DNA of 64,000 bases from Dastarcus helophoroides (Eukaryota; Arthropoda; Insecta; Coleoptera; Bothrideridae). Below are positions 6,701-45,600 of this stretch, piece after piece. The stretch lies in NCBI GenBank assembly GCA_028583605.1, contig CM053336.1, positions 22,863,004 through 22,927,003 on the forward strand, read 5' to 3'. The translations under genes were made by a program, and so were the position numbers. The notes beneath the pieces are model-generated. The model was not told the DNA's origin. It did no database searches and saw only the letters and a program-made list of their open reading frames with translations. Within the stretch, counting starts at the first letter, position 1. Each line of letters begins with the position of its first letter.

Positions 6701-9700
6701 ATTCACTCATCGATTGCCAAAGCAAGTGAATAAATAGTGATCATGGCATCATGAATATGTTTTGGTGAGTTTTTTTGTCTATTTGCAATATTTTTTAATT
6801 CTTTTTTAACTTAACACTAAATTTTGACTTGCAGGTATTACTTTCTTATAATTATGCATGGAGCTGTTTAATTTACCAATTCATCAGTTTACTACTTTTA
6901 TGTTAATTATATACGGAGATCATAGACTGTGTTGTCGTCTTTTGTGTTGTGTGTTTACAATTCTTTTTGCAGATTAAGCTCCAAGTTTCGACCAGAAGGG
7001 AATAATTTTGACATTTTGTATTAATGTTTTTTTTACATTGCTATTGCTCTGTGTAGTTTTTAATATTTCTAATTTTTACTGTTAGTTTGTAGATTGTTGT
7101 TATTTAGTGGCATCTCACAATTTCAGAAAAATGTAATATTATATAATGTAACATTGTTTTACAACCGTCAAAAAGATTTTTTTATTTTATTTCATCATTT
7201 ATTTTAAGCTGTATCGTCTGTATGTATATTTAATAGTTTCGTCAAAAACAGTAGACTTTAAATGTTTAGTTATTGTTTGATGTTTGTTACTGTTTGTTGA
7301 GAAGTGAGTCTTGCAAATTCGGTATCGCCTTCCAAAATTCCGGCAGACAAGAAAATAAAACTAGAAGGTAAACTACTGCGTTGGATAATCAAGAAAGGGT
7401 GGGTCTGTGAAAAATCTTGTTATTTGACACAAAGCTAAATACATTTTATATACTTTTGACATATTTATTAATCTAATAGAGATTGCATTATTTTTTTCTT
7501 CAAGGACAAGGTATATAATTTTTTTATAAAATTATTTCAATGTAGTTATATTTTGTTAACAGGAATTTTTATTCTTTTTATTTAGATAATCTTTATTTTT
7601 ATTATTATATTATATTGTCTTAGTCTGTTTAAATTTTGTTTAACAAGTAGCAGCGACCAGTGATGCCGAGTCTAATACTTGGTACATTTATACTCAGGAT
7701 AGGTGAATGTTTCTCAACTTTATATTGAGAAGTGAGTCTTGGAAATTCGATATTGCCTCTCGGGATTTGGGAGGCAAGAAAATAAACAAGAAGCGTTGGA
7801 GAATCAAGAAAGGGCGACTCTGTAGAAAATTTTCCCATTTTAACCAAGCTAAATGCATTTTCTATACTTTCGACAGATATTTATTTAACTAATGAGCATT
7901 GCATTATTTTTTCTTCTACGACAAGATGTATAACTTTTTTATTTCAAGTTGGTTACACTTTTTTAACTGAAACGTCGAATTTAGATATTTAAATTTTTAT
8001 TTTTTTCTTCGATAATCTTTATTATTGGTCTAATATTCAATTTTCTTAGAATAAAACAGATACCATTTTATGAAAAAAGGTTACCTTTGATAATAGGCAT
8101 ATAAAGAAAAATGTCTATTAAGCAGTGGCAGGTGGTCCTAACGAGCGCGCGCACCTCGTTAACTGAGTGATTTATTGTCTTTTCTTTAATGTAAACGAAT
8201 ATGATTTATTACATTTTTAAGCACCAAATAATGGTACCTTAATCAACTTGTAATCGTAAGTAACTTAGACCCTAGACTCCAACGACATATTAGTGAGTTT
8301 TGACGTCACTTCACTATTCACAAATGTCCCAGTTTCCGACGCCATGACGATAATTCGTCAATTACTTTCAGGCAAAGAGAATGCAGATTCTCTAGCTGAT
8401 TTAACTGAAATGTGCCTCACATCGACTTATTTTTCTTTTAATGGCAGTTTCTATAAACAAGTCTCCGGCACCCCGATGGGTTCTCCCTTATCCCCAGTCG
8501 TAGCAAATATTTTTATGGAATCTTTCGAAAACACTGCGTTGGAAACTGCGGATTTAAAACCCAAGGTTTGGCTTCGGTATGTAGATGACACATTTATTGT
8601 ATGGCCACATGGCAAGGATTCACTAAATTTATTTTTGGAACACCTAAACAGCTTACATTCCTCTATTAGCTTCACTATGGAAATCGAAAACAATGGTTCT
8701 CTTCCTTTTCTTGACGTACTGGTCACTCGTTTACCAAACGGTCGCGTTTCTCATTCCGTTTATCGAAAACCCACCCATACTAATCGTTATTTGCATGCAG
8801 AGTCCCATCATCACCCTTCCCAAAAACGTTCCGTCATAAATTCAAAGGTTTCACGAGCTGTAGCAATTTCACAACCAATAAATCTTTCAGACAAGTTGAA
8901 CAATATTCGTTTCAACCTCCGCAACAATGGTTACAAATCGCACGACATTGAAACTGTCATTAAACGACATCTTCACCCTACCCCTCGTCCTTCACAAAAT
9001 TCAATAGTTTCTTCTAAAGTCTTTCTTCCTTATGTTTGCGGAGTAACAGATCAAATCGGAAAATTATTGAGAAAACACAACATTAAAACCATTTTTTCAT
9101 CATCCTCAAAGATCCAACAGCTCCTCCCATCTCCCAAAGATGGGGGTCCTTTTGTTCTAATGGCGTGTATAGGGTTCCTTGTTCTTGTGGTTCAGTGTAC
9201 ATCGGAGAAACGGGGCGATCATTTAAGACGCGAATATCCGAGCACCAAAGGTGTCTTAGGTCTGGTTTATTTTCGCAGTCAGCCATTGCCGAACATCAAC
9301 ATGAGACCGGACATAAGATTCTCTTTGATAATATTTCAACTATATCCAATAATCCCAATTACTATAATAGGAAGATACGCGAGGCCATCGAAATCCAAAA
9401 ATTCCCCAATAACATCCACAGAGACGAAGGTTACATGCTTTCCTCCATCTGGAAACCAACCATCGGAAATCTTCGGAAGTGATCGCACAGACGCGTGGTA
9501 TATAAAGTTTCCCTTTCCCTCTTTCCTGTCAGAAGAGTTTCGCCTCTGGTATGGTGGACATACTGAGTTACCGTACTCTTCTGCCTAAACTTTCTTTTGT
9601 ACCAAGTTTTCAATTCAGAAGAGTTTCGCCTCTGGTATGGTGGACATACTGAGTTACCGTGCTCTTCTGTCTAAACTTTCTTATCCTTTGTACCAATTTT

Positions 9701-12700
9701 CAATTCAGAAGAGTTTTGCCTCTGGTATGGTGGACATACTGAGTTACCGTGCTCTGATGTTTTGAAATTGGCCTTTTTCTTTTTTGCATATTCCCTCATA
9801 TTCCTCTTTTCATCTATTTTTCTTTCTTTGTTCCTGAAGAAGCCCCCTACGATGGTGGGCGAAACGTCGAACACTTTTAGTAGTTCTTTGACACGGTGTA
9901 ATCCCGGAAGAAGTATATCCTGAACTTAGAATAAAGCACGCTTACGTTTTATTTCATTATAAGGAAATTTAAATAAGTTGGTGTGCTCGGAACTATGCCC
10001 CCAGTGTAGCTTCCTTGCCTATCAACAGCATCCACGCACTAAGGAGATTTAATTAGAAATAAACCACGGAACACCATGCTAGAACGGTGCGCCGCACCGC
10101 CTGTTTACAACGGTTTTGTATGAACTTTAAAATAGGTCAAATCAACTTAAGAACTAGTACTTTTAACCATAAAAAAATTTATTGCACTAAAATAAAATAT
10201 TTTCACAATAATCAACTGCACTTTAACATTGCCAGCTTTACATCGATGTTAAATAATTTTAGTTTATAAAAATATTATTATAGAGATCACCTCGTTTTTG
10301 AAGTGGAAACTTCTTTAGGCGCGTTGAGCTATTTTGATACAGGAAAAACTTATGACTTCTCTTCACCATCATGCTAATTTGGGTTATCAAGAGGTTCTAA
10401 TGTTAACAGTATTATGTAGCTGTAGATAAGAGGTTTAATAAAATTAAAATATTTATGAATATCAGCCTCTCAAGCAAAATATGTCGCCTTAACTTATTGC
10501 GCTATATTACTTGTTGACAACAATATAAATTTTAACTGGCTTTAAGGGTATGGGGGCGGTATACTCCCTTATGATCATAATTTAAATTTATAAATGATAA
10601 CATTTTAATTTTTGACCCAAAAATTAATTTGAAAATAAATTTTCAGTTCTTTCAGTAGTCCCCATGACTGTCTCATTTTTTTTAGTCGTCAATATTTATT
10701 TAGAGTATCACATTTTTGTCCTAAAGTTAATACCTTCCTACAAAACTGCAGTAACGTAACCAAAATTCCAGTTAATAACATTTTTTACATCTGCGTTCTC
10801 CCTAATAAAAAGTTACCAGACGCCGCTGATATTAAGAGGCACAAAATAAAAGACGTAAAACTTTAATAAAAGACAAAAGGCAAATTTTTATTTAAAGGCA
10901 GAAAGTAAAGATTTCGTTATCAAATTAAAATACAATTTAAACAATTACAGTATACACATTTTCACATATTAAATTTAAATTCAGTGGCGTAGTGGTAGAG
11001 CAATCGACTAGTAGTTCAAGGTAGTATTTTTTGGTGACGCAGTACCGATATAAGTATATTCCATATGTGGCAATACCATCCATTTGTTCCCTATCTTTTC
11101 ACTTTAATAAATTAATAAAAATGTCGAGTTTGAACTCGGATTTTTACAGTCACAATTTTAATAAAGCGACTCAAAATTTCTGGGGAAAATAATATACTTG
11201 TCAAACTTTACATTTTAATTTTAAAATGTTGAATAAACTTGAGTATTTTTTTTCGATAATTTGTAAGTTTTGTTACTGAATTTCGTTTTAATTTGAACTT
11301 TGATTATTTTTAGTAAACCCCATAATTCAAAAAAATAACACGAAATTTTGATAAATGATCGAATATTAGACTTTTTGCTAGAAACCTCAAATCTCGGATA
11401 AATTCAAAACTTCTAGATGAGTGTCGAATTGTTGATTTTTTTTCAAAAATAGACTTTGACTTGATATTGCTTTTTCTATAAGAATGTTGACCTTTTTATT
11501 TCGAAATTTGGTTTTCTTGAATGATTTAATTAACATAACAATAAATAAATCAAAATGTTATGTATAAATTGGGAAAATTGTCAAATTTTTTTATGGATAA
11601 GTAAGGTTAAGTTTTTTTGAATATCCCAACATTTTCTTAAAATTTTGTGACTTGCTCTTAATATCTGTGCTTCTATTTTTCGTACTTTCTTGAGTAAAAC
11701 TTGACATTTCTAAATACAAAATCCAAACCTGAGAGAGAATTTTTGGCTCAAAAGAATTTTTGGAAAAATTCAAAATTTCGAGATGAAAGTCCCAGCTTTT
11801 GATAATTATTTTTAAATAATATTAAAACTTTGAGTTTCAATGGACTTTTTTTATTGTTGACTTTACACTCGCAATTTCAACTTTTTTTTCTTAAAATTTT
11901 AATAGATAAAATATTTTAGTTCGAAATTAAAGTTAAATAAAAATGGCAAGTTTAAATTTGGAAGTTTAAGAAAAATGTCAAATTTGGAAAAAATCACTCG
12001 AAGTTATTAAAATTCCCAATATTTTTACTCTAATTTCGAAATGTTAATTTTAATTTCAATACCCCACATTTATCTCGAAATTTTGCGAGTTTCTGTTATT
12101 CTCATTGGTTTTTTGCACCTTTCTTTGAGTAAAACTTAAAAATTTCAGTCTCAGATTTAAGCATGAGACGAAATTATTGGAAAATGTGAGACATTTCACA
12201 AATTTATTTCGATTTTAAACTTGAAATTTTGATAATTAGAATATTAAACTTTTTGCTTAAAACACTTTTTGAAAAAACTGGAAACTTCTAGATGAAAGTC
12301 TAACTTTTGTAATTTCTTTAAATAAAATAAAATTCTGATTTTCACCTCTAAAGATAGGTTTTTTGAGATTTACATTTATCTTGAAATTGTAATTCTTTTA
12401 CTGGACATTTGCATTAACAAGAAAATTTTGATTTCAAAATTTCGACTTTTTCTGTAAATTTTAGATTTTTGTAAATTTTGATGTAGTATTTTGAAACATA
12501 TACTACTTATTTTTAATTTCGACGTTTTTGAAAAGGTTGACTGTTTTTAAAGCATTTGACATTTAAAAAAATTGATTTTCTTTAAAATGACAAGGTTTTC
12601 TCAAAATTGTCATCTATTTCAAAATTTCGGTTTTTTATGAATACGTTGACCTTTTTTAAAACTATGATTTATTTTAAAAACTTCTATTTATAAAAAAAAA

Positions 12701-13679
12701 GTCTTGTAAAACGGAATTGGCACTTACAATTTGATTCCAGCGTGGTTTTTAATAGTCCTCAATAGTGTAAGTGTGACCAATCTTTGATATTCTTCATTTT
12801 CCTGTGTAAAATCTTTCTTATCTATCATTAATTCCCCAAGTGTCAGCTGTGCCATTTTTGTAAAGGGTATTCCCACTGATATGTGGTACAAAAAATAATA
12901 CGATACGGTGTTTATATAAACCATTAGCGGCCAGCAAGATAAAACAATCAGATATACTAAGTAATCGTAGTGATATAGACCTAATTTTCCTATCATTCCA
13001 TAAATGGCCAGCGATTCTTTTAGGAAGGATCTGCTTGCTGCCGTTGGAAAAAACAAGAAAGTAAAAGCGACGACTGATATTGCAACTTGTAAAAAATAAC
13101 TTAAGGAGACAATTTTACAAAATTTTCTATGGTTCGCGAAAAATTTGGATGTGGCAGTGCGATCAACATAAGACCACTTTATTCTGCGGACAGCTGCAGC
13201 TCCTGCGCTGATAGTGTGCCTATGGAACCACCACAGTATCATTGATCCGACACCCTGAAATAGGCTTTTTTTCAATAGATAATCTTTCAATAAATATATA
13301 TCTTTCACATTGCAATCTAGCATGGTTTGTAGTACGTGATCACATTAACTATTTTCATTAGATACTTACGTAGATTTCAATTAGACATATAGGAACTTGT
13401 TTCTTCAAAATATTTTTATCTTGTGTTTCGACTAGATTCAAGAATGTAACTATAATATTTAAACTATTTATTCCTATAATAAAATAGCAATATAGTTTAC
13501 AAAGCAACCAATCATCAATAAGATGGACCATCAAGTAATCAATAAAGTGAAGAGGATTTGCTAAAACCTTTCGCAAGAGTTATATGTATTATTTTTTTTA
13601 ATAATTAACTAACATCTTTATAATGTTTAAGTATTTTAGATTGAATTCCAAATACATCCAGATACTCAAGAATGTGCAT
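3082..13679 (-). CDS. Insect odorant receptor-like gene, copy C (7 exons)
   Basis: Seven exons splice to a 397-residue protein: 13679-13614, 13567-13370, 13254-12728, 3714-3615, 3515-3420, 3362-3210 and 3135-3082. All introns are GT-AG, with phases 0, 0, 2, 0, 0, 0. The product looks like an insect odorant receptor: about seven hydrophobic segments, and a C-terminal block running from W-G-D-V-Y-S-T through KVPYYKWNAHNRYLLLMF to the short final exon ending TFIIKVKF. Such receptors sit in antennal neuron membranes as ligand-gated cation channels together with the co-receptor Orco; the ligand cannot be told. Reading through intron 4 gives TAA and TGA, which splicing removes. Intron 3 is 9 kb and full of repeats. 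Start chosen because the 22-codon first exon is conserved in all three copies. Confidence 0.82.
3720..5760. other. Intron 3 of copy C: T-rich degenerate repeat
   Basis: No gene. From about 4080 to 5250 and again near 5580-5730 the DNA is a run of diverged short words such as TTTTTCAAAATTTCGACTTT, repeated with no strict period. It reads like an old, decayed satellite or simple-sequence expansion. Confidence 0.5.
5761..6110 (+). repeat. tRNA-headed SINE, copy 1
   Basis: Near 5823 the sequence AATAGCTCAGTGGTTAAGA resembles a tRNA D-arm/A-box, followed by CATAGGTCTGATAAGTTGAGG, as in a tRNA-derived SINE head; the B-box is degenerate. The body (about 5900-6080) is clearly related, in inverse orientation, to 10280-10440: shared words include GTTAACAGTA, AACTTATG, GCGCGTT and AAAACTTCTTTA. 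Two related copies within 5 kb support a dispersed repeat family rather than a tRNA gene. Confidence 0.55.
6111..7296. other. Non-coding; small GC-richer patch at 6250-6610
   Basis: No gene I can name. 6250-6610 is less AT-rich than its surroundings and has an open frame of 97 codons whose product matches nothing I know; the repeated word TGGTACAGCC at about 6350 suggests repeat-derived DNA. 6700-7296 holds nothing visible. Confidence 0.4.
7297..8075 (+). repeat. Two-unit direct repeat, period about 424 bp
   Basis: The word TTGAGAAGTGAGTCTTG begins two related units at about 7299 and 7723. They share GACAAGAAAATAAA versus GGCAAGAAAATAAA, AATCAAGAAAGGG, AAGCTAAATACATTTT versus AAGCTAAATGCATTTT, GCATTATTTTTT and GATAATCTTTATT. 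The pair lies about 200 bp upstream of the Penelope-like coding region. Penelope-like elements often carry partial tandem copies of themselves at the 5' side, so this may be the element's 5' region, but it could be an unrelated repeat. Confidence 0.6.
8281..9480 (+). pseudogene. Penelope-like element: RT plus GIY-YIG endonuclease
   Basis: The first frame (8293 to about 9150) is a Penelope-like reverse transcriptase: SFDVTSLFTNVPV, then GTPMGSPLSPVVANIFME, the catalytic WLRYVDDTFIVW, then SLPFLDVLV. The N-terminal part is missing. Near 9130-9160 the frame shifts by one base; in the new frame (to 9482) the protein continues with GVYRVPCSCGSVYIGETGRS, the hallmark of the GIY-YIG nuclease that these elements use for insertion, with the conserved R and E downstream. 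So this is a 5'-truncated, frameshifted copy in intron 3 of receptor copy C, on the opposite strand. The tail contains tandem repeats (9529-9755) and a hammerhead motif (9830-9873), as is known for this class. Confidence 0.9.
9529..9755 (+). repeat. 86-90 bp tandem repeat, 2.6 units
   Basis: Units start at 9529, 9615 and 9705 with TCAGAAGAGTTT. Each contains CTCTGGTATGGTGGACATAC and TGAGTTACCGT. In the first two units the core starts CAGAAGAGT and ends with ACTCTTCTG or a one-base variant, so each core can fold as a hairpin about 54 nt long. The repeat sits between the GIY-YIG frame and the hammerhead motif. Confidence 0.9.
9830..9873 (+). ncRNA. Hammerhead ribozyme motif of the Penelope-like element
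   Basis: Core boxes are in order: CTGAAGA at 9834-9840, a stem II of GCCC/GGGC type in 9841-9860 and GAAA at 9861-9864, followed by CGTC with predicted cleavage after C9868. The flanks pair as stem I (TGTTC 9829-9833 with GAACA 9869-9873). Stem III is minimal (A-U and C-G, no loop), which in known Penelope hammerheads is thought to need a dimeric fold. An unpaired A at 9841 and a C/U mismatch in stem II weaken it. Confidence 0.75.
9874..10279. other. No gene; end of the Penelope region and spacer
   Basis: 9874-9960 is probably the last part of the Penelope-like element (AATAAAGCACGCTTACG). The rest has only a 60-codon frame of no recognisable content. Confidence 0.4.
10280..10560 (-). repeat. 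tRNA-headed SINE, copy 2 (inverted)
   Basis: The reverse complement aligns by eye with 5800-6090: AGTGGAAACTTCTTTAGGCG against AGTGAAAACTTCTTTAAGCG, AAAACTTATG, ATGCTAATTT and GTTAACAGTA. The tRNA-like head is more decayed than in the first copy. Confidence 0.55.
10975..11060 (+). repeat. tRNA-like fragment
   Basis: AGTGGCGTAGTGGTAGAGCA looks like a tRNA D-arm with A-box, and AGTAGTTCAAGGTA like part of a T-arm with B-box, but the spacing is too short for a complete tRNA and no cloverleaf closes. It is probably a SINE head or tRNA fossil. Confidence 0.35.
11130..12720. other. Intron 3 of copy C next to exon 3, shared with copy A
   Basis: No gene. AT-rich decayed repeat words again, but parts match the same intron position of copy A (59340-60550): for example CTTTGAGTAAAACTTAAAA with AATGTGAGACATTT about 80 nt on, at 12125-12200 here and at about 59930-60010 there. 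So this intron segment was present before the receptor duplication. Confidence 0.6.
12728..13679 (-). CDS. Copy C exons 1-3 (N-terminal half)
   Basis: Exon 1 (13679-13614) encodes 22 residues starting MHILEYLDVFGIQSKILK. Exon 2 (13567-13370) starts VLANPLHFIDYL, contains the first membrane segment and ends QVPICLIEIY before a perfect GTAAGT donor. Exon 3 (13254-12728) starts GVGSMILWWFHRHT, holds two or three membrane segments (around FLQVAISVVAFTFLFFPTAA and LIVLSCWPLMVYINTVSYY) and ends in phase 2 at GTAAGT. Intron 1 is 46 nt and intron 2 115 nt. The second stretch, VSYYFLYHISVG, is nearly identical in all three copies. Confidence 0.85.
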
Positions 13680-16947: not shown

Positions 16948-17028
16948 ATATGTTTTGAACAAGTCACCCAATGGAGGTTTGCTTTCTTGAATATTTATAC
17001 GACTGACTAACGGCTTTAAATTGGAAGT

Positions 17029-17100
17029 GTATACAACCACCGTACCATGCTGACGAGGCCAAGGAAGGCCGAAACTAGTCTATGGTTGCGGTTGTACATA
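17029..17100 (+). ncRNA. Hammerhead ribozyme 1 of the retrozyme-like element
   Basis: CTGACGA at 17050-17056, stem II GGCC-AAGGAA-GGCC at 17057-17070, GAAA at 17071-17074, then CTAGTC with predicted cleavage after C17080. Stem III is tiny (AC/GU with a two-base loop). Stem I is long: TATACAACC upstream faces GGTTGTACATA downstream, and CCATG faces TATGG, so about 15 pairs can form with an internal loop. Confidence 0.88.
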
Positions 17101-17494
17101 TTTTCAATTTTGAGCACGTTTAACTGTTTAATTACAGAACATTTAATTGGTCATTTGTCAAAACTAGATGAAAGTAAAGTCACGCCGAGGACGTTTGTAT
17201 CTATGGATGTTGCGATGCAACCCGTGATACAAGCTTTGCCTCATCTACGTGAACTTTGCAATTGCAGTCTAATTTTTATTAGATTCTAATGAAATTAGAT
17301 TTCAATTGCATCGTAATAAACTTGTATATATTCGTATATGCAAGGCTTATTATCTCAGCAGAGAGTAATGCTTCAATTAGCATGTAGCGAAAATGTTTGC
17401 GTAATAAACAGTTAAAAGTCAGTTACAAGTCACCCAATGGAGGTTTGCTCTCTTGGATACTTATACGACTGACTAACGGCTTTAAACTGGAAGT

Positions 17495-17570
17495 GTATAC
17501 AACCACCGTACCATGCTGACGAGGCCAAGGAAGGCCGAAACTAGTCTATGGTTGCGGTTGTACATACATA
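17495..17570 (+). ncRNA. Hammerhead ribozyme 2 of the retrozyme-like element
   Basis: Same core as in the first unit: CTGACGA at 17516-17522, GGCC-AAGGAA-GGCC, GAAA at 17537-17540 and CTAGTC with predicted cleavage after C17546. The core is identical and stem I is kept; the downstream arm has four extra bases (CATA). Confidence 0.88.
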
Positions 17571-17643
17571 TTTTCAATTTTGAGCACGTTTAACTGTTTA
17601 ATTACAGAATATTTAATTGGTCATTTGTCAAATATGTTTTGAA

Positions 17644-19560: not shown

Positions 19561-20136
19561 ATGTTTAAAGAGTTATTTTGTTATATTCTTCATTAGAATT
19601 ATTATTTACTTTGTTCAAGCAATCTCGCTTAATGATTTTGGTTATCAAAGAATATCAGTTTTATTTTGCCTCAGACGTTGATTAAATCAACGGACTAAAA
19701 CAACAAACAGCATGTGGTACGCAAATTTTAATAAAATTGTTGCCTGCCAGCAGTAATCCCGTAACAAATCACGTTAGAAACTATGATGTACTACTGAAAT
19801 CTCCACCAGCATTGATCGCTGCGCTCTGCGTTGAATTGTTTGCATCTGTGTAGGAGAATACAAGGCGCCGCCCATCTTTCCCACTATTAGCTCTCTATAT
19901 TAAATCTCGCATTAACATTCTTCCTATGGACAGTGTTTGACTTTCCTGATGTGTATAAGCTTACTTTGGCTCACCACCGCCAAATTTTAATCCGGATCCA
20001 GTCTGAAAATGTGGCATTTCTAGGTGAAGGGCATTCTAGGCCAATGTTAAAGCTATAGGAGCGCTACTAAATCACCATCCATTACCCACCTAGGGCGTCT
20101 GGCCCAGTCGAAAATGTGGTGCGGAGTTGGCCTAGG

Positions 20137-20276
20137 TGAAGGTCAAAGGTGAGGTACTTCATCAGACTGAGAAAAAAAAGACTTGCCGCCGTCGGGATTC
20201 GAACTTAATACTTACCTGACCAGAATCCGACACATTGACCACTGAATCATTAGGCCTTGTACAAAGTTTACACTAA
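20137..20276 (-). repeat. tRNA-derived SINE or tRNA fossil in the left arm
   Basis: The minus strand carries CCTAATGATTCAGTGGTCAA (A-box region) and, about 45 nt on, AAGTTCGAATCCCGACGG (a good B-box/T-arm). An A8 run and unrelated DNA follow. The piece is absent from the matching right arm, where GTGCGGAG runs straight into AGGTTGAC, so it is an insertion. Confidence 0.65.
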
Positions 20277-20344
20277 GAGGTTGACTACTTTCGGTTAAAC
20301 GAGATAAAGAATTCGGTTATCATTAATCGCAGATTAAAATTGCC

Positions 20345-20800
20345 GAAATCTCTTCAACTTAGTAGTTAGAAGCATTTGCGGAGTCCGTTCGTTAGGAACA
20401 GTAATCACCAAGAGCATGTAAGTTCGAGCCATAAGTGTAGTTCAATGCCTGAAAGGGTATTAGCCATCAAAGTAGTTGTTTCTTGTAGATCGGGCTTCAA
20501 ATATTTAAATTTTTACCACAGTAAATTATTGATGAAACGTCTATTCATGTTAAAAAATTTTTCTATATTTTTTACAAGTTTTATTTTGAAGAATTTCTTC
20601 CTCATTGTTCCCTTTCCATGTTATGCACTGCTGACGAGCTCAAATGAGAGTGAAACATCGATGTCCAGTGCTACAACCTTTTTTATGTATTTTTTGATAT
20701 TTTTATATTTTCATAATTTATCAACAACAAAAAAATTTTTTTTGTTCATATCTAATGTTGGTCTTCTATTTTTCATTTTTTCTATTCTGTGTAAAATAAA
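20345..20800 (+). repeat. Possible hammerhead-bearing SINE-like unit
   Basis: 20359 onward, TTAGTAGTTAGAAGC, resembles a tRNA A-box region and GTAAGTTCGAGCC at about 20427 a B-box. About 200 nt downstream is the hammerhead at 20625-20671, followed by a T-rich end. A tRNA-like polymerase III head plus an internal hammerhead is known from the Sm-alpha SINE family of schistosomes; here the link between head and ribozyme is inferred from closeness only. The 142-codon frame over this stretch is not a gene. Confidence 0.4.
20625..20671 (+). ncRNA. Hammerhead ribozyme motif
   Basis: Textbook layout: stem I GCACTG (20625-20630) pairs perfectly with CAGTGC (20666-20671). CTGACGA is at 20631-20637, stem II GCTC/GAGT with a six-base loop at 20638-20651, GAAA at 20652-20655, and stem III plus cleavage triplet in CATCGATGTC, with predicted cleavage after C20665. 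All core bases are intact. Confidence 0.88.
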
Positions 20801-22706: not shown

Positions 22707-23489
22707 TAGTTTTTCTTGTTACTAAAACCGTTATTTCATAATTTGTAGTTCACTATTGTTTTACAACTGAAATAACTAGGTATGAAATTAGGTATGAACT
22801 TCTGAGAAATGATAACCAAATGTCTTATCTCGTTTAGCCGAAAGTAGGTTACTAACTTGTCAGGACTAGTTTTTATGTTAATTAGATTACTACTTAATAG
22901 GTTAAATAGATACGCATAATAATTAGTACATAAAAGGTCATCGTTTAAATTGATATTCATGATTCGCTAACTTGTCAGGAGTCGTTTTTTATGTTAATTA
23001 AGATAATATAGTTTTAATTATCGAGAAATGATAACCGAATTCCTTATCTCGTTTAGCCGAAAGTAGTCAACCTCTCCGCACCACATTTTCGACTGGGCCA
23101 GACGCCCTAGGTGGGGAATGGTGATTTAGTAGTGCCCCTATACCTTTAACATTGGGCTAGAATGCCCTTCACCTAGAAATGCTACATTTTCAGACTGGAT
23201 CCGGATTAAAATTTGGTGGTGGTGGTGTGCCAAAGGCAGCTTATATACACTACTGACGACGACAGTTTTCGGTTTTAGCGTAAACTTCTGTTTATGTGCA
23301 CTTGGTCTTCAAAAATTGGAGAAGGCTGACATAGGTATTAGTTGCCTTATCCGGTAATTTATCTTACAGATAAAGGGAATTTTGTTGTAGCTTCTTTGGT
23401 CATCCCGTTTCAGGTATAAAACTTATACCCTGGATTAACATATCATTAGTGGCTGTTTTGGGCAACCCCGGTTATTTTGCATTCCTAAT

Positions 23490-26400
23490 TATACGGATAA
23501 TAGGATAATTATTTCTTTACCAGAACCCATTAAATGTCTCAAATTCACTGAAAAGGAACAATCAAATTTTAATCTATTTCATTCTGACCATTTCATATCA
23601 GAAGAAAATCAAATCAGTAACAATAGAATAATACCAACTGACAAATTAATTAGAACTAATCGTTTAAATTAAGAAGAGAAATCAAAAATAATAACTGTGT
23701 AGAAAATTTTTTGACATTTTTATAAAGAAAATGATAAATTAACTTTCCCCAACCAAATAAAATATAAAATTAAAACAACTCATGAAATCCCAATCCATAA
23801 TAAATCATATCGTTATCCCTTTATACCTAAATCCAAAGTTGAAAAACAGATAAAGAAAATGTTGAATGATGGCATTATCAGACTATTTGAAAGTCCATGG
23901 AGTTCTCCAATTTGTATAGTTCCAAAGAAATTAGATGCGAGTGGTAAACAAAAATGGAGAATTGTAGTAGACTATCGAAAAGTTAACGAAAAAACAATCG
24001 ATGACAGATATCCTCTTCCCAATATTACAGATATCCTTGACAACCTTGGTAGATGTCAATATTTCAGTACATTAGATTTAGCCTCCGGTTTTTACCAAAT
24101 TGAAATGGACCATCAATCCATTAAAAAAACCGCTATTACAGTAGAAAATGGACACTATGAATATGTAAGAGCGCCGTTTGGTCTAAAAAATGCTTCTGCA
24201 ACCTTTCAGAGAATCATGGATAACATACTTAAAGATTTGGAAGGCAATATGGACGATGTTATTGTCGGTGTGGCATCATTGCGCTGATCACCACGGTCAA
24301 TCTGTTAATGACATCGTTCCCCTGAGACCTTCAAAGTGGGTTTAACACTCAGGGCATCATTCCCCTGATAATTAATTATACATGTTTCAAGGGCGCTCAC
24401 TTATTTGAAAATAAAAAGAAATAATATTATATTTAACGAAAATATATTAATTTATATTGTATGTACGTACCTACATGCTACATATCTATGTCACTATAAA
24501 TCTTATGTAACACTACTTATTATTTATTACTATTTTAATTAGTGTTGATAGTGGTGTAAGGCGCACTTAACAAAATGAGATCTTGTAATTTCTTTACATT
24601 TATATTTATTTATAATATCTGACATATATTCCAGTTAGGTTTTATTGTAGATCCGTACACTTTTTATTTTGATGTACACATCTGTTTGAAAATTAAACAA
24701 GACTTCAAAAAACTGGTATATATTCGGATGTGAATAAAAGTGTGAATTAAGGTTTGCATGAAACGATTCACATGCCTTTGTTGATCTTTCACAGATAGCA
24801 ATGTTACTTGTCTACATTTCTGGTGTAAACTCCAATATAATTGTCCATTAAATAGTCAGAAAGTACTGTTAGGTTTTCACATTTCGTTTGTACTGTCAAG
24901 GGTCAAACACAAAACAATCTGCAACACTTGCTGGATCTAACACTGGCAGTCCAAATAACCAACGTAACCACTTCTCGATGTCACTTGAGGTATCTTTGTA
25001 AGCCTTTGCCATGCTTGGGCCAGATGAAAACGGCATCCCAGTAGTTTGAGCAGTTGTCCACATAGCTCGGACAGCTTGGTGTATAGCTTCTTCAAAGTCC
25101 GACATTACAATCTTTGATTGAAAGTTCAGCTTTATTAATCTGCAATGCGTCTCTATATCTTCAAATTCTTGCACTTATGTACCAATCTGTTTGCCAACAA
25201 TCAAAAGGCCAAAGGAATGTAATGACCATTTTTTATGCAGTGTATTGCAAATAACTGATAGAAGTATTTTACACAACATTTAAAAGATCCGTCAATGTGG
25301 ATCATTTCACACGAATACAACATTTGAAGATTCCCTGAACATGAAAAAATTACAAGCTTTTTACTTGCATCATTTACCAATAAGAAATCTTCATCCTTGA
25401 GAGTTTTCGTATTCATCTGGGATAATGTGATGTGAATCTCTAAAATATTCTTAGCTAGCGCTGATCTTTGAGAACGTCGAGATGTGTAGATGCATTTTCT
25501 GATATTGTAGATGTGCTTTGTTGTCATGGAATCAATAATGGATGGATTTGCAGCTAATTCTTTATAAATAAGTTTGTCTAAGTAAGTCTTTATAAATAAG
25601 TTTGAATTTGAAATTTTTTGATTTGTTAAATTTGGGTCCGGAGCATGATTATGTTGTTTCAGTTTTCAATAAAACTGATCCACTTTGATCCATATATATT
25701 TTTGCAGAGAATTTTTTTTGTGTACACCTCCATTTGACACCAACAGTCGTTTTACAGTGTTTGTAGAATTTATACTGATTGAAAATAATTAATTTTCGAC
25801 CGCGTTTACTTAATATGTACTCCATGTTTTACAACAAGTGCTTGCAAACTAACTGATATGTAATTATTAATTTTATTTTCAAGAGTTGAGAATCGAAGTG
25901 AAAGTGGTCATTCTGCTAATGTAGTTGTTAATGAGAATTTTATTATCAGGGCAACAATGCCCTTGCTTTAATCCTCTTATCCTCAGACTGCTAATTGCAC
26001 CCTGCGTTTCAGGGGAAAGCTGCCTTACCCATTATTGTATTTTCCACTTCTCTTCAAGGACATGTAAATAATTTAAAATTAATTTAAAAAAACTTAAATA
26101 ATTAAGATTTAAAATACAATTAGACAAATTAGAATTTCTAAGAAAAAAAATTGAATTTTTAGGACATGTATAACACCTGAAGGTTTCAAACCAAATCCAA
26201 AAAAAATGAAGCAATCAAAAAATTTCCGATTCCAAAAGGAGCTAAAGAAATTAAATCATTTTTAGAATACTACAAAAAATTTATTAAAAACTTTCCTAAA
26301 ATTACAAAACCTTTTACAAAAAGTTGAAGGAAAGGAGAAAGAATTGAACATACACAAGAATTCATTGAAACTTTCAAAATTTGCAAAGATCTTTTATGTA

Positions 26401-26929: not shown

Positions 26930-27980
26930 CGCTGCGTATTATAACATCACAAGTGTGATGCTTAATCAACTGATTAAATTTTATGTCCATTTTTGTAAGT
27001 TATAGCTAAATGCATTATGTGATACCGCCCCCGCTCACGCATGTAAAATTCTTTTGTCATTATATTTTCTGATGTAAATTGACTTTTGCTTGAAAATAAA
27101 GCTGTAGAGGATATTTCCAAACAAGATTTTTCCAAATGAAAATTATTTCGGGAACCTAACTCTTTAAGTATAATATTATTGGAAATTTAGTTCCGCTTTT
27201 TGTACAATAATTTGGACTATGTATTGGGTTAAATTTTTTGTTTATGGGTTAAAGCTGTGCATGATTTGTGATTTAATTTTATAAACAAATATACCAAGAT
27301 ACCAAATTTCATCACAGAATCAAAAAAGGTTAAAAACTACCATTATTTTTGAATGCGTGTTATAAAATATGGAGCGCCTACTCTAGGGTTAAGTGAATTT
27401 TAATTGTAGTGTTACGAAATAAGTTTGAAATAAAGTGGTTACAATTCACGAAGTTTTAATTTTCGAACAGATAACGTAAAACAATATCTACTTAAAAATT
27501 GATTTGTCCCGATTTTTGCGTTTGAAAATATCACAGCCTTATCTATACCCATCGGTCTTATAATTCATTTGGAGCGAAGACCTATTGACATTTGCCGCTA
27601 CTAAACCGTTGCTGCCCCTAGGATGCGGCATATTGGGTTTAATCACGTATCAAGCAGCGGATTATTTCTGTTTACAACCTTTCTGTGTTTCCAATAATAA
27701 AAGTAAAAAATTCTGAAATTATAAAATCAAGATGATAGCTTGGCCATCGAAATGCGTTAGAACAATCTTTGTTATGTTTTCTAATCTTTCTTGGTTTCAG
27801 AGGACAAGATTTAAATTTCAATTTTTATAAAATCACCACAATAGATGATAATATAAGCAGAATCTAATATTTTATTCGTATTTGGAAAAGAGCAAGTTAT
27901 TGAAATGTACACACATCATTTTGTATTACCAAAATATCCCAGAACTTTATAAAATGCTCTTGTGGAAAAGAATTAGCACT
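26930..27980. other. No gene seen
   Basis: AT-rich DNA between the gypsy fragment and exon 3 of receptor copy B. It should hold the start of copy B's intron 3, but the conserved intron sequence seen in copies A and C is not present, and exons 4-7 of copy B were not found here. Confidence 0.5.
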
Positions 27981-28645
27981 TGCCATTTGACACTAGCGCG
28001 GTTTTTAATAATCCTTAATAGGGTAAGTGTGACCAATCTTTGATATTTTTCGTTCTCTAGGTTGATTTTTTTTTTCTCTATCGTTACTTTCTCAAGTGTC
28101 AGTAGACCCATTTTTGTAAAGGGCATTCCCACTGATATATGGTACAAAAAATAATACGATACAGTGTTCATATAAACTGCTAGCGGCCAGCAAGATAAAA
28201 CAATCAGAAACACTAGGTAATCGTTGTGATATAAACCTAATTTCTCTATCAATCCATAAACGGCTAGCGATTCTTTTAGGACAAATTTGGTTGCTGCCAT
28301 TGGAAACAACAAGAAGGCAAACATGACAAGTGTTATTGCTATTTGCAAAAAATAACACAAGAGGGCAATTTTACAAAGTTTTCTATAGTTCCCGAATATC
28401 TTGGATCTTGCAGTGAGATCAATGTGTAAGACCAACTTATTTTGTTAATATCTGCAGCTGCTGAGCTGTTGGTGTGCCTATGAAACCATCAGAGTACGAT
28501 TGATCCGACTCCTTGAAATAAAATATTTTTCAAGAAATAATCTTGCAATGAATATGTGTCGAATTATAATCTATAATATTTGTAGTAAAGTAATCACATT
28601 AACAATTTTCATATGATACCTACGTAGATTTCAAAAAGACATATA

Positions 28646-33249: not shown

Positions 33250-34640
33250 CCTTATTTATTTCACTCATGAGCATACACATTCCTCTTTGGACGTGGAGAT
33301 TTTAGAACAGTTCCAAAAATAAAGCAACTAAAATATCGATTGAGAATAGAAGCACAATCGCCTTCCGAATCAATCTTCTTGTTAAGGTGCCTCATCCTGG
33401 TGGTGGCAATCCTGACTTTGTTCATCGTCGAAATGCGGAAAAGTTAAGTGGAATTTAGGCCGAACCACTCACGTAAGTTTTTCATTCAAGAGTGACGCTC
33501 TTTACCTGTCCTCCTTTTCGCTTCGAGCTTGGGCTGCACTATTAGTTGCAGAAGCCTATATTTGATGTGCCTCATTATATGATCGAAGCATTCCAATTTG
33601 CGTGTTTTCAAGATATGTACCAGCTCCATATTTTTATCCATTCTTTAAAGGACTTGTTTGTTGATAACGTGTTCTGTCCAGGAGATTTTAAGTATGCGAC
33701 GGTATAGCCAAATTTCAAAGGCATTAATTTTCTCTGTGATTTTTTCGTTGATCGTCCACGCCTCGGCTCCATATAACAGACCAGAGACCACGTAACATTC
33801 GTACTTTAAAGGTAGGCTAAGATCTTTGGCAACGAAAAAGCTTTTCATTTGGAAGAATGCAGTTCTGGCTTTTTCAAAACGGCATCTTATCTCTGCACCG
33901 TAATCCCAAATGTCCTGCATGGTTGTCCCTAAGTAACTCGTTATTCATCATTAATGGTCTTTGCGAGTTAACTGGATTTTTCGACATTACCTTAATTTTG
34001 GTTTTAGCTGCGTTTAGGTTTAGACCATGTCGGAATAAGTGCAGGTATATTAAACTAACCAAGTTTTGTAAGTCTTCAAAGCTGACAGCTATAAGGGAAG
34101 TATCGTCTGCGTATCTAATATTGTTGATATGTTCTTCATTCATTTTTATTCCCTTCTGACAGGCCAGCGCTTTCTGGATTACTTGCTCATAGTATAGATT
34201 AAATAAAGTTGGAGACAGAACACATCCCTGGCGTACGCCCTGACGAATTTTTATTTCATCTGATGTACTGCCATCCACTCTCACCACAGCTAGTGGTTTC
34301 CACTAGAAATTGCCAATTATTCTTATATCCTTCCCATCTACTTCCGTGGATTTAGGTATTTCTATAAGTTTTTCATGTTGGACGCTGTCAAACGCTCTGG
34401 AGGAATCAACGAAGCAGACATGAACATCATGGCTCATATCTTTATATCTTTAGATGAGCACTCGCAAGGAAAATATTGCCTCTCTGGTGACGAGAGAGTT
34501 CTCCAATCCGAATTGGCCTTCAGAGATACACGATTTGCACTTGTTATATATACGCAAGTGGATTACATTCACAAATATTTTAGTGATGGTGTTAATCAGA
34601 CAAATCAATCGGTAGTCGTCGCATGTTACACACGTTAGTA
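33250..34640 (-). pseudogene. LINE reverse transcriptase (RTE-like), partial
   Basis: From 34622 leftwards: CDDYRLI, SFDSVQHEKLIE after a frame break, then DGKDIRIIGNF, the open frame 34287-33874 with IRQGVRQGCVLSPTLFNLY and the catalytic INNIRYADDTSLIA, and 33920-33645 with LLYGAEAWTINEKITEKINA, LYRRILKISWTEHVINKQVL. This order and wording match RTE-type LINEs that databases often label craniofacial development protein 2-like. The 5' part is missing; the pogo element at 34641 adjoins the break. Several frame shifts make it inactive. Confidence 0.85.
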
Positions 34641-35109: not shown

Positions 35110-38100
35110 ATGGAAAACGCTGTTAAAATGGTAGAAAGAGGTATATTATCTACATATGCTGCTGCAGTCAGATACAACATCCTAAGAAGAACCCTACGCA
35201 ACTATCTAGCGTGTTGTTCAACTACACGAAAGCTAGGTCGGTCGGCTACATTGACTACAGAACAAGAAGCTGGGCTTGTCAGAAGAATCATACGTTTGGC
35301 TGATGTTGGAGTGCCGATGACTTCAAAGATGTTGCGCGTACATGTTGCGCGTACAGGCTTTTTCATTCTGTAAAATTAAGAAAATTCCAAACACTTTCAA
35401 TGATGCCAAAAATGCCGCGGGAAAGAAATGGTTGAATTTGCAGAATTAGCACGTCGTAAAGCACAGATGATGAATCCAGCTCGTGCTCAAAAATTAAATA
35501 AAGATATTGTTGGCGATCACTTTTCCAAATGCAAAAGCGTGCTGGATAGAGTTCCAATTGAACATACACCTGAAAGCATTTACAACACTGATAAAAAAAA
35601 TTGTCACATTTCTTTGCACCATCAGCAGGAAGTTCTGACAGCCAAAGGGAGAAAGAGAGTTTATCAAATAGCGAATGAGCATGCTGAAAATGTGACTGTG
35701 GTAGGCTGCGGAAATGCTATAGAATTAGCTATTCCGCCAATGATATTGTTCAAAGGCAAGAGACTAAAGCCAGAATTCCAAAATAATTTACCTTTAGGCT
35801 CTCTGATGAAGATGACGCCAAAAGGAAGTATGACGACAGAAACTTTCATAGAGTTTATTAATCATTTGCTTAAATACAGAACATCAGGGCTCATATTTGA
35901 TGGTGCAAAATGCCACCTGGACTTTACTATTGTCGAGGAAGCTGAGAAATGTAGCATTATCTATTATCTATCTATCTATTATTGTCTTCCGTCAAATACC
36001 ACGCACAAGCTACAGCCCATGGATAAATCTGTTTATCGTTCTTTTGAGCGCCATTGGGACCAAGAGTTGATTAAATACGTCAATCAGCATCCCGAACGAA
36101 CCCTTAATAAGATAAGCTTCAACGTCATTCTCTCACAAGTATGGCCGAAATGTATGACTATTACCAATATCTCGAATGGGTTTCGCGCTACAGGTTTATA
36201 TTCATATAACCCAGATGCTATTCCTGAAGAGGCGTTTGCGCTTTTTGCGTTGTCAGAACTTCCAAATCCTACAAGCAGTGTGACTATTGCTATCTTATCT
36301 GATGAATCGGGGGAACAAGAGATTTCAACTGCAAATGTGGAAGATTCAGATGGATCAGGCACAGATACTGAAAATTTGCCACTATCCTTGCTCTCAAAAA
36401 ACAATCCGAATGCTGGAGCTCCACATAAGATACACAATAAATCAACCACGTGTGAGATTCATGAATTTTTACCAACTCCTAAGTTAAAAGTTGGAGCGAC
36501 TGCTCCACGCTAGAAGTCTCTGAATTACAGGGCTCAAGAGCTAACAAAAGATTTGTTTGGTGGCAATGCTACGAATTCCACATCATAGATTACTGTACCA
36601 TCGTCAAGAGTAGAAGATGTTCCTGGTACTTCTTCCATGATAAAGATTAACACAAAGATCCGAAAATCAGCGTCCGTTACTGGCTGTACATTTGCACAAC
36701 CTGCAGTTGCAGCAACGCGAAAGCGAACCTCAGTAAAGACTGCTTCTTTGACAGCAGATAAGCTTACGGGATCTAAACCAAATGGTCACGATAATGAACC
36801 TTCTTGGTACTGTCCAGCTTTTAAAGAAGATCAAGTTGATGATATTTATTTATTTATTTATTTAATATTATGCCCAACAGAAGTATTTCCAATTAGTGAG
36901 CATTAAAACATAACAAATGTAAAAACAAGACAAATATTTCTATAGCCGTAAAAATATAAATAACACAGAGACTTTAACAGATAAAAATAAATTGTGTTGA
37001 CTTACAAATTAAACATAACATAAAATTCAAGTATAAGTATACATTCCAGGCAAAAACCTTTATATTACCAGCATTAACCCAACTAAAGGATGACACATTT
37101 TGTTACTACCCAAACAAACAAAACGAGCAAGGGCTATCTATAACCCGAATTGATTTTTCCTGCACCAACAATGCAGGATTTTTAAGAACTATAGAGCGTA
37201 CTGTTTGTAAATTGCTGGAGTAGAAATCACAACGTCCAGATAGGGAATTGACGTATTTTCCTATAATATGCAAAGGTGATCTACGCCCGACATTAGTGCG
37301 TGGTGTTGTAACATCCAATGTCGTACTATATCTAGCCCCTTGCCTTAGTACCTTGAAATTTAACCTACTTAATAGTGCCGGAGAATCGATTTTACTGTTA
37401 CACAGCTTATGAAAAAATATTAGAGCGGTGACAATTCTTCTTGTCTGCAGGGAATGGAAATCAAACTTGTTTAAAAGACATTGTTGAGGTATTCTTCTAG
37501 CTGGCCAATTTCCCTCAGATCTGAATTCCAAGAATTTCAGGAACTTGCGGTCAATTTTATCCAGCATCAACTTCTGATAGGTGTAGATGGGGAACCATAT
37601 CAGAGAGCAGTATTCCAGCCGAGACCTAACCAAAGCATAGTACAGCTGTTTAAAGGTACTTATATTATTAAAGTTTGTGGCGGTTCTTAAAGCAAATCCT
37701 AATATTTTTAAACCACGTTGGTAACGTGCGAGTCAAAACTAAACTTCGCATCAAAGGTAATTCCCAAATCTTTAAATGAATTACTTCTTGGTAAAATATT
37801 ACCATTTGTGGAATATAAGTAACCAATTCTAGCCACACGTTTAGTAAACGAAACTACACAACACTTTTCAATATTAACAGATAGGTAGTTGGCTCTACAC
37901 CATCTCTGGACATTGTCAATATCAGTTTGAAGTTGTTCACAATCAGATACCGAATCAATCAAACGATAGATCTTTAAGTCATCTGCGAATAGAAGAAACG
38001 AAGAATGTTTGATTACACATAATATATCGTTTATATAAATTAGAAACAGCAGGGGACCCAAATTAGGCCCCTGAGGTACGCCTGAAATATTGTCGTACAT

Positions 38101-38210
38101 ATGATATGCGACAATGTCTTAATTGTGGCGTTTAGTATCATGATGTGTGTGTTGGACTCACACCCGCTGATAAAATATTTTACGTTTCAGGAGATTGTTT
38201 AAAAAAAAGA
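35110..38210 (+). pseudogene. pogo-type transposase with PHD-like C-terminus
   Basis: 35110-35373 encodes the psq-type HTH (ENAVKMVERGILSTYAAAVR). After a frame break, 35428-36513 is open for 361 codons: SIYNTDKKNCHIS (first D kept, but DETG has become DKKN), AIPPMILFKGKRLKPEF, SGLIFDGAKCHLDF (second D kept) and THKLQPMDKSVYRSFERHWD (third D kept), then an acidic S/T-rich tail. The last part, CPAFKEDQVDD, is cut by a LINE at 36846 and continues at 38101 with MRQCLNCGV, a stop, YHDVCVGL and GDC, a Cys/His pattern like a PHD finger, which jerky/pogo transposases of insects often carry. Confidence 0.85.
36846..38100 (-). mobile_element. 5'-truncated LINE (Jockey/CR1 group) nested in the pogo element
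   Basis: The insert is 1255 bp with a 7 bp target duplication ATGATAT (36839-36845 and 38101-38107). Its 3' tail is a TTTA repeat on the plus strand at 36846-36868. On the minus strand it encodes SGVPQGPNLGPLLFLIYIND, FLLFADDLKIY (catalytic ADD) and, after a frame shift near 37700, MVRSRLEYCSLIWFPIYTYQ and a thumb/C-terminal region to 37106. Truncated at the 5' end, as usual for LINEs. Confidence 0.92.
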
Positions 38211-42651: not shown

Positions 42652-45600
42652 CTGAAACAAAAAGCATAAATAAGTGAATAACAAGTTTATACTATTGCTT
42701 CGGGCTAAGATTGCCATTACGTCACAAATAATATTCATATGAACTAAAGACTTAAAATCCTGGTCAATTTAGTGTCTAAATCTGTCACATTGAATAGAAG
42801 GGGAGACCTAGAAATGCATCTCCCATGAAAGTACTTGTAGAAAAGAGATTAATCACCAACCATCTGCCCGTGCTCTAGTGTTTCGAGAAAATTGGTCAAA
42901 CTCTTGTCAACAATGAGGCGAATAACTCTTTTTTGAATTAAATCCAAAAGAGCTAAAGTGTGCTTTGGTGCTGAACTTCAAACACGAGAGCAGTATTTTA
43001 ATGTTAGCCCAACTTAAGCGTTGTATATTGTGAGTAGCTGATGAAATGTGAAGCACTTTTAGCTCTAAAAGGAAAGTCCAGCTTTGGCAAGCGCGCACAA
43101 GATCGTCCCAGGAGAAGTTAGTGCTTGCATTCACTCCTAGGATAGAAATTCTATCGGGAGGATTTTATCGTCCATGAGTATGTTTGTTGTATTATCTCTT
43201 GATGTTTTCTTAAAGAAAACCGCGACCTGACTTTTTGAGGCGTTAAAGTCGACTAAATTTTTCTCACCCCATTTGAGAATGCTTGCGAGATCCTTATTAA
43301 TCATCTGTATCTGCTGTCTTCTTCACCGATCTGAAGCAGCGACGAATAATGGTTTGTCGAAGAAAAAAGATGACACCAGGCTCTATCATCTGAGTAACTG
43401 TATATTGGATTGAAAGTTAAAGCTAAGTGATCGTTTATGTGTAACAAAAACAAAGAAGGAGACAGGACAGACCCTTGCCATCAACAACGACCTGAAGAGA
43501 TCTGCCAGCGAGAAAATTGGATATCAAGTGACAGAGTCTAGGACTAGGCGGAAGACCATGGGATGTTAATTTGACGAGAAGAGATTGGTGCCAGACCTTT
43601 GAGATATCCAACGCCACAATTCCAGCCTCACCGTGTTATTCCAGAGCTGAGTTACAAAAATGAGTAACATATGCCAGTAGAACGCCAGTTCAGCGTTGTT
43701 GTCTGAAACCGTATTGTCTGTCCGAGATGATTCTATTCTTCTCCAGATATTTGAGGATCTCGATGCTGATAATCTTTTTCACCACTTTAGATATAACGGG
43801 CAACAAATATACAGGTTGGACCATAAGTAATGGTACATAGAACAAGAGTGAATTTTTTGTATAAAAATAATGTGATTAAGCTATATTTACCATATACCAA
43901 AAGTTGTTATTAACAGGGATACAGCATTTCAAAGTTAAAAAAAAACATTGATTTTTTTGGTATAACTATTGAATAAATTGTAATATAGGCACCAAATTTG
44001 GCACAAGAGGGTTTCTTAAGTCGACAAACTCTAATTTGCTAACATATTACCAATAACTGATAGAGGGCGCTACCTGCACTACCCTGCATGATTCTAAATC
44101 ATCATAACTTTTTTGTGTACCCACGTATATTTATTTTGGATAGGTTGTTTTATTTCTCCATATTTTCTACGTAAGAAAAGCATATCTTATGAAAGTCGAT
44201 ACGAGCAACCATTTTCAAGATATTTGCCTTTAAAGTTTGAAGTGCCTTCGTTTTAAATAACTAAGATATTAAATTTTCGAAGTAACTTGAAAAAAGTAAT
44301 GATAAGGCAGCTTTTAAAATAATTTATGTTAAATATTACTTTGTTGATAATATTATTACCCAAATTTTGCAAATCTCAATAAAGAAAATGCACAAAATTG
44401 TATAGGGCGATAGTTGTTAGCCAGATTCTTTTTTCTTTATTTAGGGACAGGCTGCACCCTAGCAGATTTTCAGATATTAGAAAATACGCCTTTGTTGTAG
44501 GAGTGTGAACAATTTGCTTAGGACAGGAATCAACTCTGGAGAGCACTTCTTAAGAACAATAGCGCGATACCATCAAAGACGAAGCTTTCGATATGTCGAG
44601 CTCGAGGAGAATACTCCTGACTGTGCTTTGTCTGAAAACAACTTCAGGCATCAAAGTGCCAACCTTCGGAAGAATAGAAGTTTCTGCGTTTCGAGAATCA
44701 AAGGTTGGAATTTTCCAGCAAACATTAAGGCTAGCACGTCGGCCTTTTCCTTGAAAGTAGTCGCAATATTGTTGTTGTCATTGAGTAAAGGTGAAAAATT
44801 TGAAGATACAAAATTCTTTCCAATTCAATTTGCAAATTCTTAAAAGGACTGGAACCTTTCAGACAGTTGATAAGCCTCTGGTGCATTTTACCATCGAAAT
44901 CACTTTTTGCCTCGTCTATAACCTGTTCACAAAAATTTCGTGCATTTATAAAGGTAGTTCGAGCCATGACCGAGGGATTATTTCTCTAACGACGATATAG
45001 GTGATTTTTGTTGGATACAGCCTGAGCACATTTTTTGCTGAACCAAGATTTACTGGTAACAGACTTCTTTTGGAAATAAAGAATTGAGCATTCAGTACGA
45101 ACCAGGATAGTTTCAGTGATGAATTTGGCGACTGAGGAAGAATTGTCTGATTTAAAGTAGACTTCTTGCCATGAAAAAAATGCAAAGAAGTCTGCAAATT
45201 CTTCCTAGTTTGCACAGTTTAAGTGCTAAAACCTACGTGGCTGTGTCTGAGAAAAAGGTGGTATATGAAGCGAGCAAGAAACTGCTACAAGCTTGTGATC
45301 GGAATTTCCAAGCAATGATCTCACAGTGATTGTATACGACTTTGAAAAATTTGTAAGGAAAAGGTCAAGAAGATGAGGTTGATGGGTATCTACATTAGGA
45401 ATTCTTATGGGTTCCTTAACCAATGGCAATTGTCCACAAGTGATGGCGAAAGCCTCTGCCACTTTTCCCACGTCGTCAGTTCGGAAAGAAAACCTCAACC
45501 AAGGAATGTTGTGTACGTTGAAGTCACCGAGAAAGACAACCTCTGCGTTTGGATATTTCATTTGTAGGTGATTGAAGGTTGCGGAGAGATTAGAAAAAAG

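Follow-up and report, generated by a model that had tools for sequence, protein, structure and literature searches.

A retrozyme-like insert with two hammerhead motifs and a 12-bp target duplication in Dastarcus helophoroides

The insert and its hammerhead motifs

The window, i.e. the whole 64,000-nt stretch of D. helophoroides DNA that was analysed, contains a 672-bp insert (16960-17631) flanked on each side, without mismatch, by the same 12-bp sequence (Table 1). The perfect 12-bp target duplication noted in the initial annotation was confirmed as an exact repeat, and among 62,900 equally spaced point pairs tested in the 64-kb window it was the sole match of at least 12 bp, the next-longest being 8 bp (n = 3). 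A or T occupies 10 of the 12 positions of the duplication, in a window of 67% A+T. Direct-repeat comparison reproduced the proposed arrangement of one full 466-nt unit followed by 206 nt of a second; with 1.44 units and two hammerheads, the tandem is short of a full dimer. The spacing of the units is 466 over the first 142 nt and 470 past a 4-bp indel, and apart from this indel the units differ by five substitutions over 203 aligned positions (2.5%). All five (16984-17140 versus 17450-17610) are transitions, a number too small to separate editing from ordinary mutation; three keep a predicted pair, one breaks a pair, and one lies at an unpaired position. Compensatory change between the units was dropped as a line of evidence because five substitutions are too few to count, and with only these five, selection on the ribozyme is not claimed from its absence of changes, nor do so few changes separate the two readings offered earlier for the identical cores, a young insertion or conserved cores.

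The GC content of the unit is 37%, versus 28% in the flanking 1 kb on each side. The longest stop-free run of the insert is 89 codons, which agrees with the earlier statement that it has no coding capacity. A poly-A or simple-repeat 3' tail is absent from the insert, neither a PBS nor a PPT was seen in it by eye, and sequence comparison found no further copy of the 466-nt unit elsewhere in the 64-kb window.

Table 1. Positions of the insert, its predicted RNA features and the Penelope-like neighbour within the window
Feature	Position	Strand	Basis or remark
Putative Penelope-like RT remnant, possibly related to the mobilising enzyme	8269..9588	+	RVT_1, E 1.1e-11
Minimal hammerhead motif CUGAAGA...CGAAACGUC; follows the Penelope-like ORF, outside the insert	9834..9868	+	
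Left target-site duplication, 12 bp	16948..16959	.	Exact direct repeat
Unit 1, 466 nt (phase of the initial annotation)	16960..17425	+	Direct-repeat comparison
Unit 2, partial, 206 nt	17426..17631	+	Carries a 4-bp insertion absent from unit 1
Right target-site duplication, 12 bp	17632..17643	.	Exact direct repeat
Hammerhead 1, type I	17031..17103	+	Core CUGACGA at 17050, GAA, palindromic ACUAGU; predicted cut 17080/17081
Hammerhead 2	17497..17569	+	Same core at 17516; predicted cut 17546/17547
Predicted self-excised RNA, 466 nt, cut to cut	17081..17546	+	Folding prediction; strongly self-paired as circle
Predicted stem-loop with A/C-rich loop UCAAAAC (17158-17164)	17151..17171	+	Folding prediction; insert 3' end matches 17161/17162 in the loop
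Putative reverse-transcription phase: 5'-truncated upstream copy, 202 nt	16960..17161	+	Phase set by the 3' end of the insert
Putative reverse-transcription phase: full downstream copy, 470 nt	17162..17631	+	

Each unit carries an intact core, and both copies comprise CUGACGA, a 4-bp helix II with the loop AAGGAA, GAA, ACUAGU and the cut triplet GUC. As initially annotated, the two cores are identical; both are within a stretch shared without change by the two units (17022-17094 = 17488-17560), and both give matches to the Hammerhead_HH9 model. Both copies have the conserved core positions CUGACGA, GAA, GUC and A15.1-U16.1 (standard hammerhead numbering), together with helices I and II. The long helix I contains an internal loop; in cis, helix III consists of a single A-U pair around CUAG, giving the palindromic ACUAGU. 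The claim that the hammerheads lie exactly one unit apart holds for the cores (17050 to 17516, exactly 466) but not for the 3' parts, which are 470 apart.

A search with Rfam hammerhead models, proposed earlier as a check, gave a divided result: gathering thresholds were reached nowhere in the 64-kb window (0 matches), whereas in a local search of 801 nt both copies matched Hammerhead_HH9 over its full length with 22.7 and 22.3 bits (E 0.0051 and 0.0068, respectively). When the 64-kb window was searched at any E value, core 1 appeared at E 0.41 and core 2 was not listed at E up to 1. A descriptor of the core plus three helices, in which a loopless helix III was accepted, matched the window three times, at both insert hammerheads and at 20631; the expectation, derived from 60 simulated windows, is 0.033 matches. 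The hammerhead pattern with ACTAGT had 0 matches in viral contigs and 0 in prokaryote genome contigs, collections that are not expected to hold animal DNA. Three microRNA models also matched the insert (E 4.5-9.4), which was taken as chance on strong hairpins.

In the lowest-energy fold of the isolated hammerhead, part of the core pairs with the helix III strand. The predicted gain from dimerisation is small for the insert hammerhead (-2.8 kcal/mol) versus -9.7 kcal/mol for the hammerhead at 20631, both calculated with standard energy parameters. Because these parameters do not describe the hammerhead catalytic core, cleavage by the insert hammerheads and their action as dimers are treated here as putative.

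The hammerhead outside the insert (20616-20688) is also of type I and more canonical, with 34.9 bits to HH9 (E 4.6e-5 in 64 kb) and a helix III that is a 10-nt palindrome, ACAUCGAUGU. It was found without a tandem partner in the window and is unlike the 466-nt unit; its pattern had 0 matches in viral contigs. The longest direct repeat considered as a target duplication of this hammerhead, an 11-bp AAAAAATTTTT pair (20552, 20730), was judged uninformative in AT-rich DNA.

Predicted RNA folding and neighbouring features

Folded as a circle, the unit gave -150.6 kcal/mol, versus -99.8 ± 5.6 kcal/mol for 60 dinucleotide shuffles (z -9.1). This value was better than those of all 137 successive 466-nt tiles of the plus strand of the window, in which two of the five best-folding tiles overlap the insert. 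In the linear form the z value was -7.84, and none of 100 shuffles folded as well. The minus-strand circle reached -133.5 kcal/mol (z -7.2). Because the plus strand, which carries the hammerheads, pairs better by 17 kcal/mol and has more G-U pairs in its circular fold (17 versus 9 for the minus strand), the folding model suggests that the plus-strand RNA may be the selected form.

About 7 kb from the insert lie an RT remnant and, behind it, a minimal hammerhead motif (Table 1). We read the remnant as Penelope-like from its sequence motifs, and a putative GIY-YIG motif was recognised in it by eye; Pfam and solved-structure searches of the frame with this motif gave no match. Among the 120 homologues of the remnant that were listed, from a total of 1,868, three contain the GIY-YIG family PF01541, and the same 120 come from insects and also from lizards, lamprey and others. 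The pattern of the minimal hammerhead occurred in 0 of 100 shuffles, the pattern having been written after the site was seen. Its layout behind the RT remnant resembles that of the printed template of PAc, a purified lizard Penelope-like enzyme (PMC11167929).

Several repeats and reading frames were recorded in the surrounding DNA. Copies of an 86-90-bp tandem repeat occupy 9529-9755, past the last of the Penelope-like frames and ahead of the minimal hammerhead. A direct repeat of approximately 345 bp (7280-7623 and 7707-8049, 72% alike, 427 apart), in which the hammerhead descriptor had no match, closely precedes the RT remnant. Three related ORFs (12724-13344, 27947-28444 and 60553-61107, minus strand) are located in duplicated blocks with 74-80% DNA identity; the two that were searched had no Pfam match, no homologue was found for 60553-61107, and as a guess they could possibly represent a chemoreceptor-like family. 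Inverted copies of a short repeat at 19950-20339 and 23012-23249 look by eye like a tRNA-derived SINE, and ARAGORN reported no tRNA in the window.

The 3' end of the insert

The insert ends 85 nt past the second predicted cut, which corresponds to 81-82 nt in the numbering of unit 1, where the 4-bp insertion is lacking. At this position a stem-loop is predicted whose loop, UCAAAAC, is the only one with at least 80% A/C among the eight hairpin loops listed. The pair probabilities of its stem are 0.76-0.89 in the circle (0.43 for the last pair) and 0.53-0.72 in a 71-nt piece (0.34 for the last pair), and in the 170-nt linear piece 17081-17250 the stem-loop is not predicted (0.03-0.07).

A start of reverse transcription inside the RNA is described for PAc, which initiates internally at two adjacent sites, the commonest position being an AC-rich stem loop at 111-118 bp of the ORF (Frangieh and others, PMC11167929). 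Counted on the printed template of that work, with the cut after nt 29, this start lies 82-89 nt downstream of the cut, or 85-92 nt if the "26 bp downstream" given in the text counts from the first base. In the fold calculated here the PAc start stretch is unpaired (0.84-0.99) and forms an internal loop, not a hairpin loop. The 3' end of the insert and the PAc start are close in distance and in loop type, a comparison made post hoc on one insertion. According to the same source (PMC11167929), PAc in vitro uses unprocessed RNA and also inserts RNA with dead hammerheads, its hammerhead needs protein, reads ending at the cut were not found, and AT-rich targets are favoured. The A or T at 10 of 12 positions in the duplication informs little on this last preference, because the window itself is 67% A+T.

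Where the insert ends on its 3' side is suggestive of a Penelope-like enzyme without being proof of one. The template was presumably a circle or a multimer, since a linear RNA opened at the cut would yield only about 81 nt from this 3' end. In the part of the literature that was searched, no paper was found that connects the 3' ends of retrozymes with the site where a Penelope enzyme starts. The proposed link of the insert 3' end to Penelope-type initiation is the new part; the element itself belongs to a known kind.

Comparison with known elements and origin of the insert

Animal retrozymes are described as tandem units of low GC content with type I hammerheads and self-paired RNA circles, without LTR signals, and their target duplications, when present, exceed 4 bp (PMC7229834). 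The non-LTR retrozymes of coral, mussel and axolotl resemble the insert in having a type I hammerhead in each short, AT-rich, non-coding unit, a target duplication, a highly self-paired predicted circle and a Penelope-like element in the same genome, as is read here (PMC7229834). The insert has the type I core, the low GC content without coding sequence, the duplication of more than 4 bp and the predicted self-paired circle of this group. Its unit of 466 nt is slightly above the published 150-450-bp repeats and 170-400-nt RNAs (PMC7229834), and we take the 150-450-bp range as descriptive and not as defining.

Helix III of the insert, with its A-U pair and palindromic CUAG, is like that of the amphibian Amex1 ribozyme and unlike the stable form of most invertebrate ribozymes. 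In the axolotl Amex1 ribozyme, one base pair is joined to a palindromic tetraloop, and its cleavage is described as poor in the single ribozyme and far more efficient in dimeric constructs (PMC7229834). The same one-pair helix III with a palindromic tetraloop, and better cleavage as dimers, are reported for newt satellite DNA and axolotl Rtz_331; these differ from the insert in being of vertebrate origin, with a 330-bp unit and approximately 60,000 motifs in axolotl (PMC7229834).

The nearest arthropod case found in the literature searched is pDo500, a satellite of Dolichopoda cave crickets, which like the insert unit is a repeat of approximately 500 bp with a hammerhead, and for which single- and double-hammerhead cleavage has been proposed (PMC2837043). 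As a satellite it makes up about 5% of one genome (PMC2837043), whereas the insert consists of 1.44 units with a target duplication, and the two are likened by description only. Plant LTR retrozymes share with the insert two hammerheads flanking one unit and the RNA circle model, and differ in their type III hammerheads, size of 600-800 nt, 4-bp duplication, primer-binding site and GC content above 55% (PMC7229834); the insert has the type I layout and a 12-bp duplication.

Type I hammerheads as in the insert are also found in Penelope-like elements, such as PAc Poseidon of the green anole (PMC11167929) and Penelope of the rotifer A. vaga (PMC3846280). The A. vaga element includes a partial tandem of a full and a 5'-truncated copy that resembles the layout of the insert and that, unlike the insert, is described without a target duplication; 9- and 10-bp duplications are reported on other A. 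vaga Penelope insertions, with inverted pseudo-LTRs (PMC3846280). Penelope-like elements are autonomous and encode RT and GIY-YIG endonuclease, whereas the insert codes for nothing.

The earlier proposal that the insert originated from a multimeric or circular 466-nt RNA is supported in part: the anatomy, the strand-asymmetric folding and the target duplication point to a retrozyme-like element copied from a circular or multimeric RNA, and the differences between the units (5 of 203) are not what a circle predicts at birth. The reading that we prefer, tentatively and at somewhat less than even confidence, is that of a non-LTR-retrozyme-type insert whose circular or multimeric RNA was copied internally by a Penelope-like enzyme. 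Against this reading count the single insertion and post hoc comparison, the dependence of the 3' stem-loop on the folded piece, the internal loop of the PAc site, the insertion by PAc of RNA with dead hammerheads, the rotifer tandem without a target duplication, the dissimilarity of the unit to the Penelope region, the unfavourable fold and small dimer gain of the isolated hammerhead, the one predicted pair broken by a substitution, the non-identity of the units and the Rfam scores below gathering threshold. Mobilisation by a LINE-type or other RT, with the 3' end falling in the A/C-rich loop by coincidence, is possible but on the unlikely side. LINE-type insertion is likewise compatible with a 12-bp duplication, and the window contains further RT-like remnants (RVT_1 at 23715-24287, LTR-type by eye, and Exo_endo_phos_2 at 45226-45606) as well as LINE-like RT motifs recognised by eye only at 33874-34302 and 37708-38118; Cervera and de la Pena leave both LINEs and PLEs open (PMC7229834). 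This explanation is opposed by the lack of a poly-A or simple-repeat tail on the insert and by a 3' end at the distance and in the loop type of a Penelope enzyme. The template may also have been a linear multimeric transcript, produced by read-through of a tandem array and copied from an internal start, with the hammerheads incidental; we regard this as conceivable rather than probable, and it is compatible with internal copying by a Penelope-like enzyme. It would fit the difference between the two units and the use of unprocessed RNA by PAc, for which the hammerhead is dispensable in vitro (PMC11167929), whereas the strong, strand-biased self-pairing of the circle and the identical intact cores suggest, indirectly, a processed RNA.

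Descent from a deleted, non-autonomous Penelope pseudo-LTR tandem, instead of an independent retrozyme family, appears improbable to us. Penelope pseudo-LTRs do carry minimal type I hammerheads in tandem (PMC7761336), partial tandems occur in Penelope elements (PMC3846280), and helix III of the insert is nearly missing in cis, as in the minimal Penelope variant. However, comparison of the 466-nt unit with the Penelope region showed no similarity within the window, helix I of the unit is long and has an internal loop, the HH9 match extends over the whole model, and the helix III palindrome is ACUAGU in place of the ACGU of the Penelope motif. Very improbable is a short LTR or TRIM-type element with terminal repeats of approximately 203-206 bp, or an origin as part of a satellite array. 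Direct terminal repeats are indeed present, but LTR elements follow the rules of a 4-6-bp duplication and TG...CA ends, whereas the insert has a 12-bp duplication and its ends do not read TG...CA; for a satellite fragment, a matched 12-bp duplication is not expected.

On the preferred reading of internal copying by a Penelope-like enzyme, the insert would belong with the animal non-LTR retrozymes, as a retroelement that is non-coding and non-autonomous and has a type I hammerhead in the RNA of each 466-nt unit. A transcript with two hammerheads would free a 466-nt RNA, which would probably be joined into a circle. A Penelope-like enzyme would nick AT-rich DNA, begin copying within the A/C-rich loop, some 80-90 nt downstream of the cut, and complete 1.44 turns of the circle or the equivalent length of a multimeric transcript, leaving a partial tandem of a truncated and a full copy with a 12-bp duplication. 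For the enzyme that moves animal retrozymes, Penelope-like elements are named in the sources consulted only as strong or likely candidates (PMC7229834, PMC7761336). As a more general proposal, which we consider speculative and rather doubtful at present, animal retrozymes may be copied by Penelope-like enzymes from an internal start of the type used on Penelope RNA, an A/C-rich loop whose distance downstream of the cut is constant at about 80-90 nt, with the hammerhead and the loop acting together as a copying tag that is recorded in genomic 3' ends. If an A/C-rich loop 80-90 nt downstream of the cut turns out to contain the 3' end of many retrozymes, the question of the mobilising enzyme would become answerable largely from genome sequence, and if the proposal is true, the Penelope hammerhead would gain a place in template recognition.
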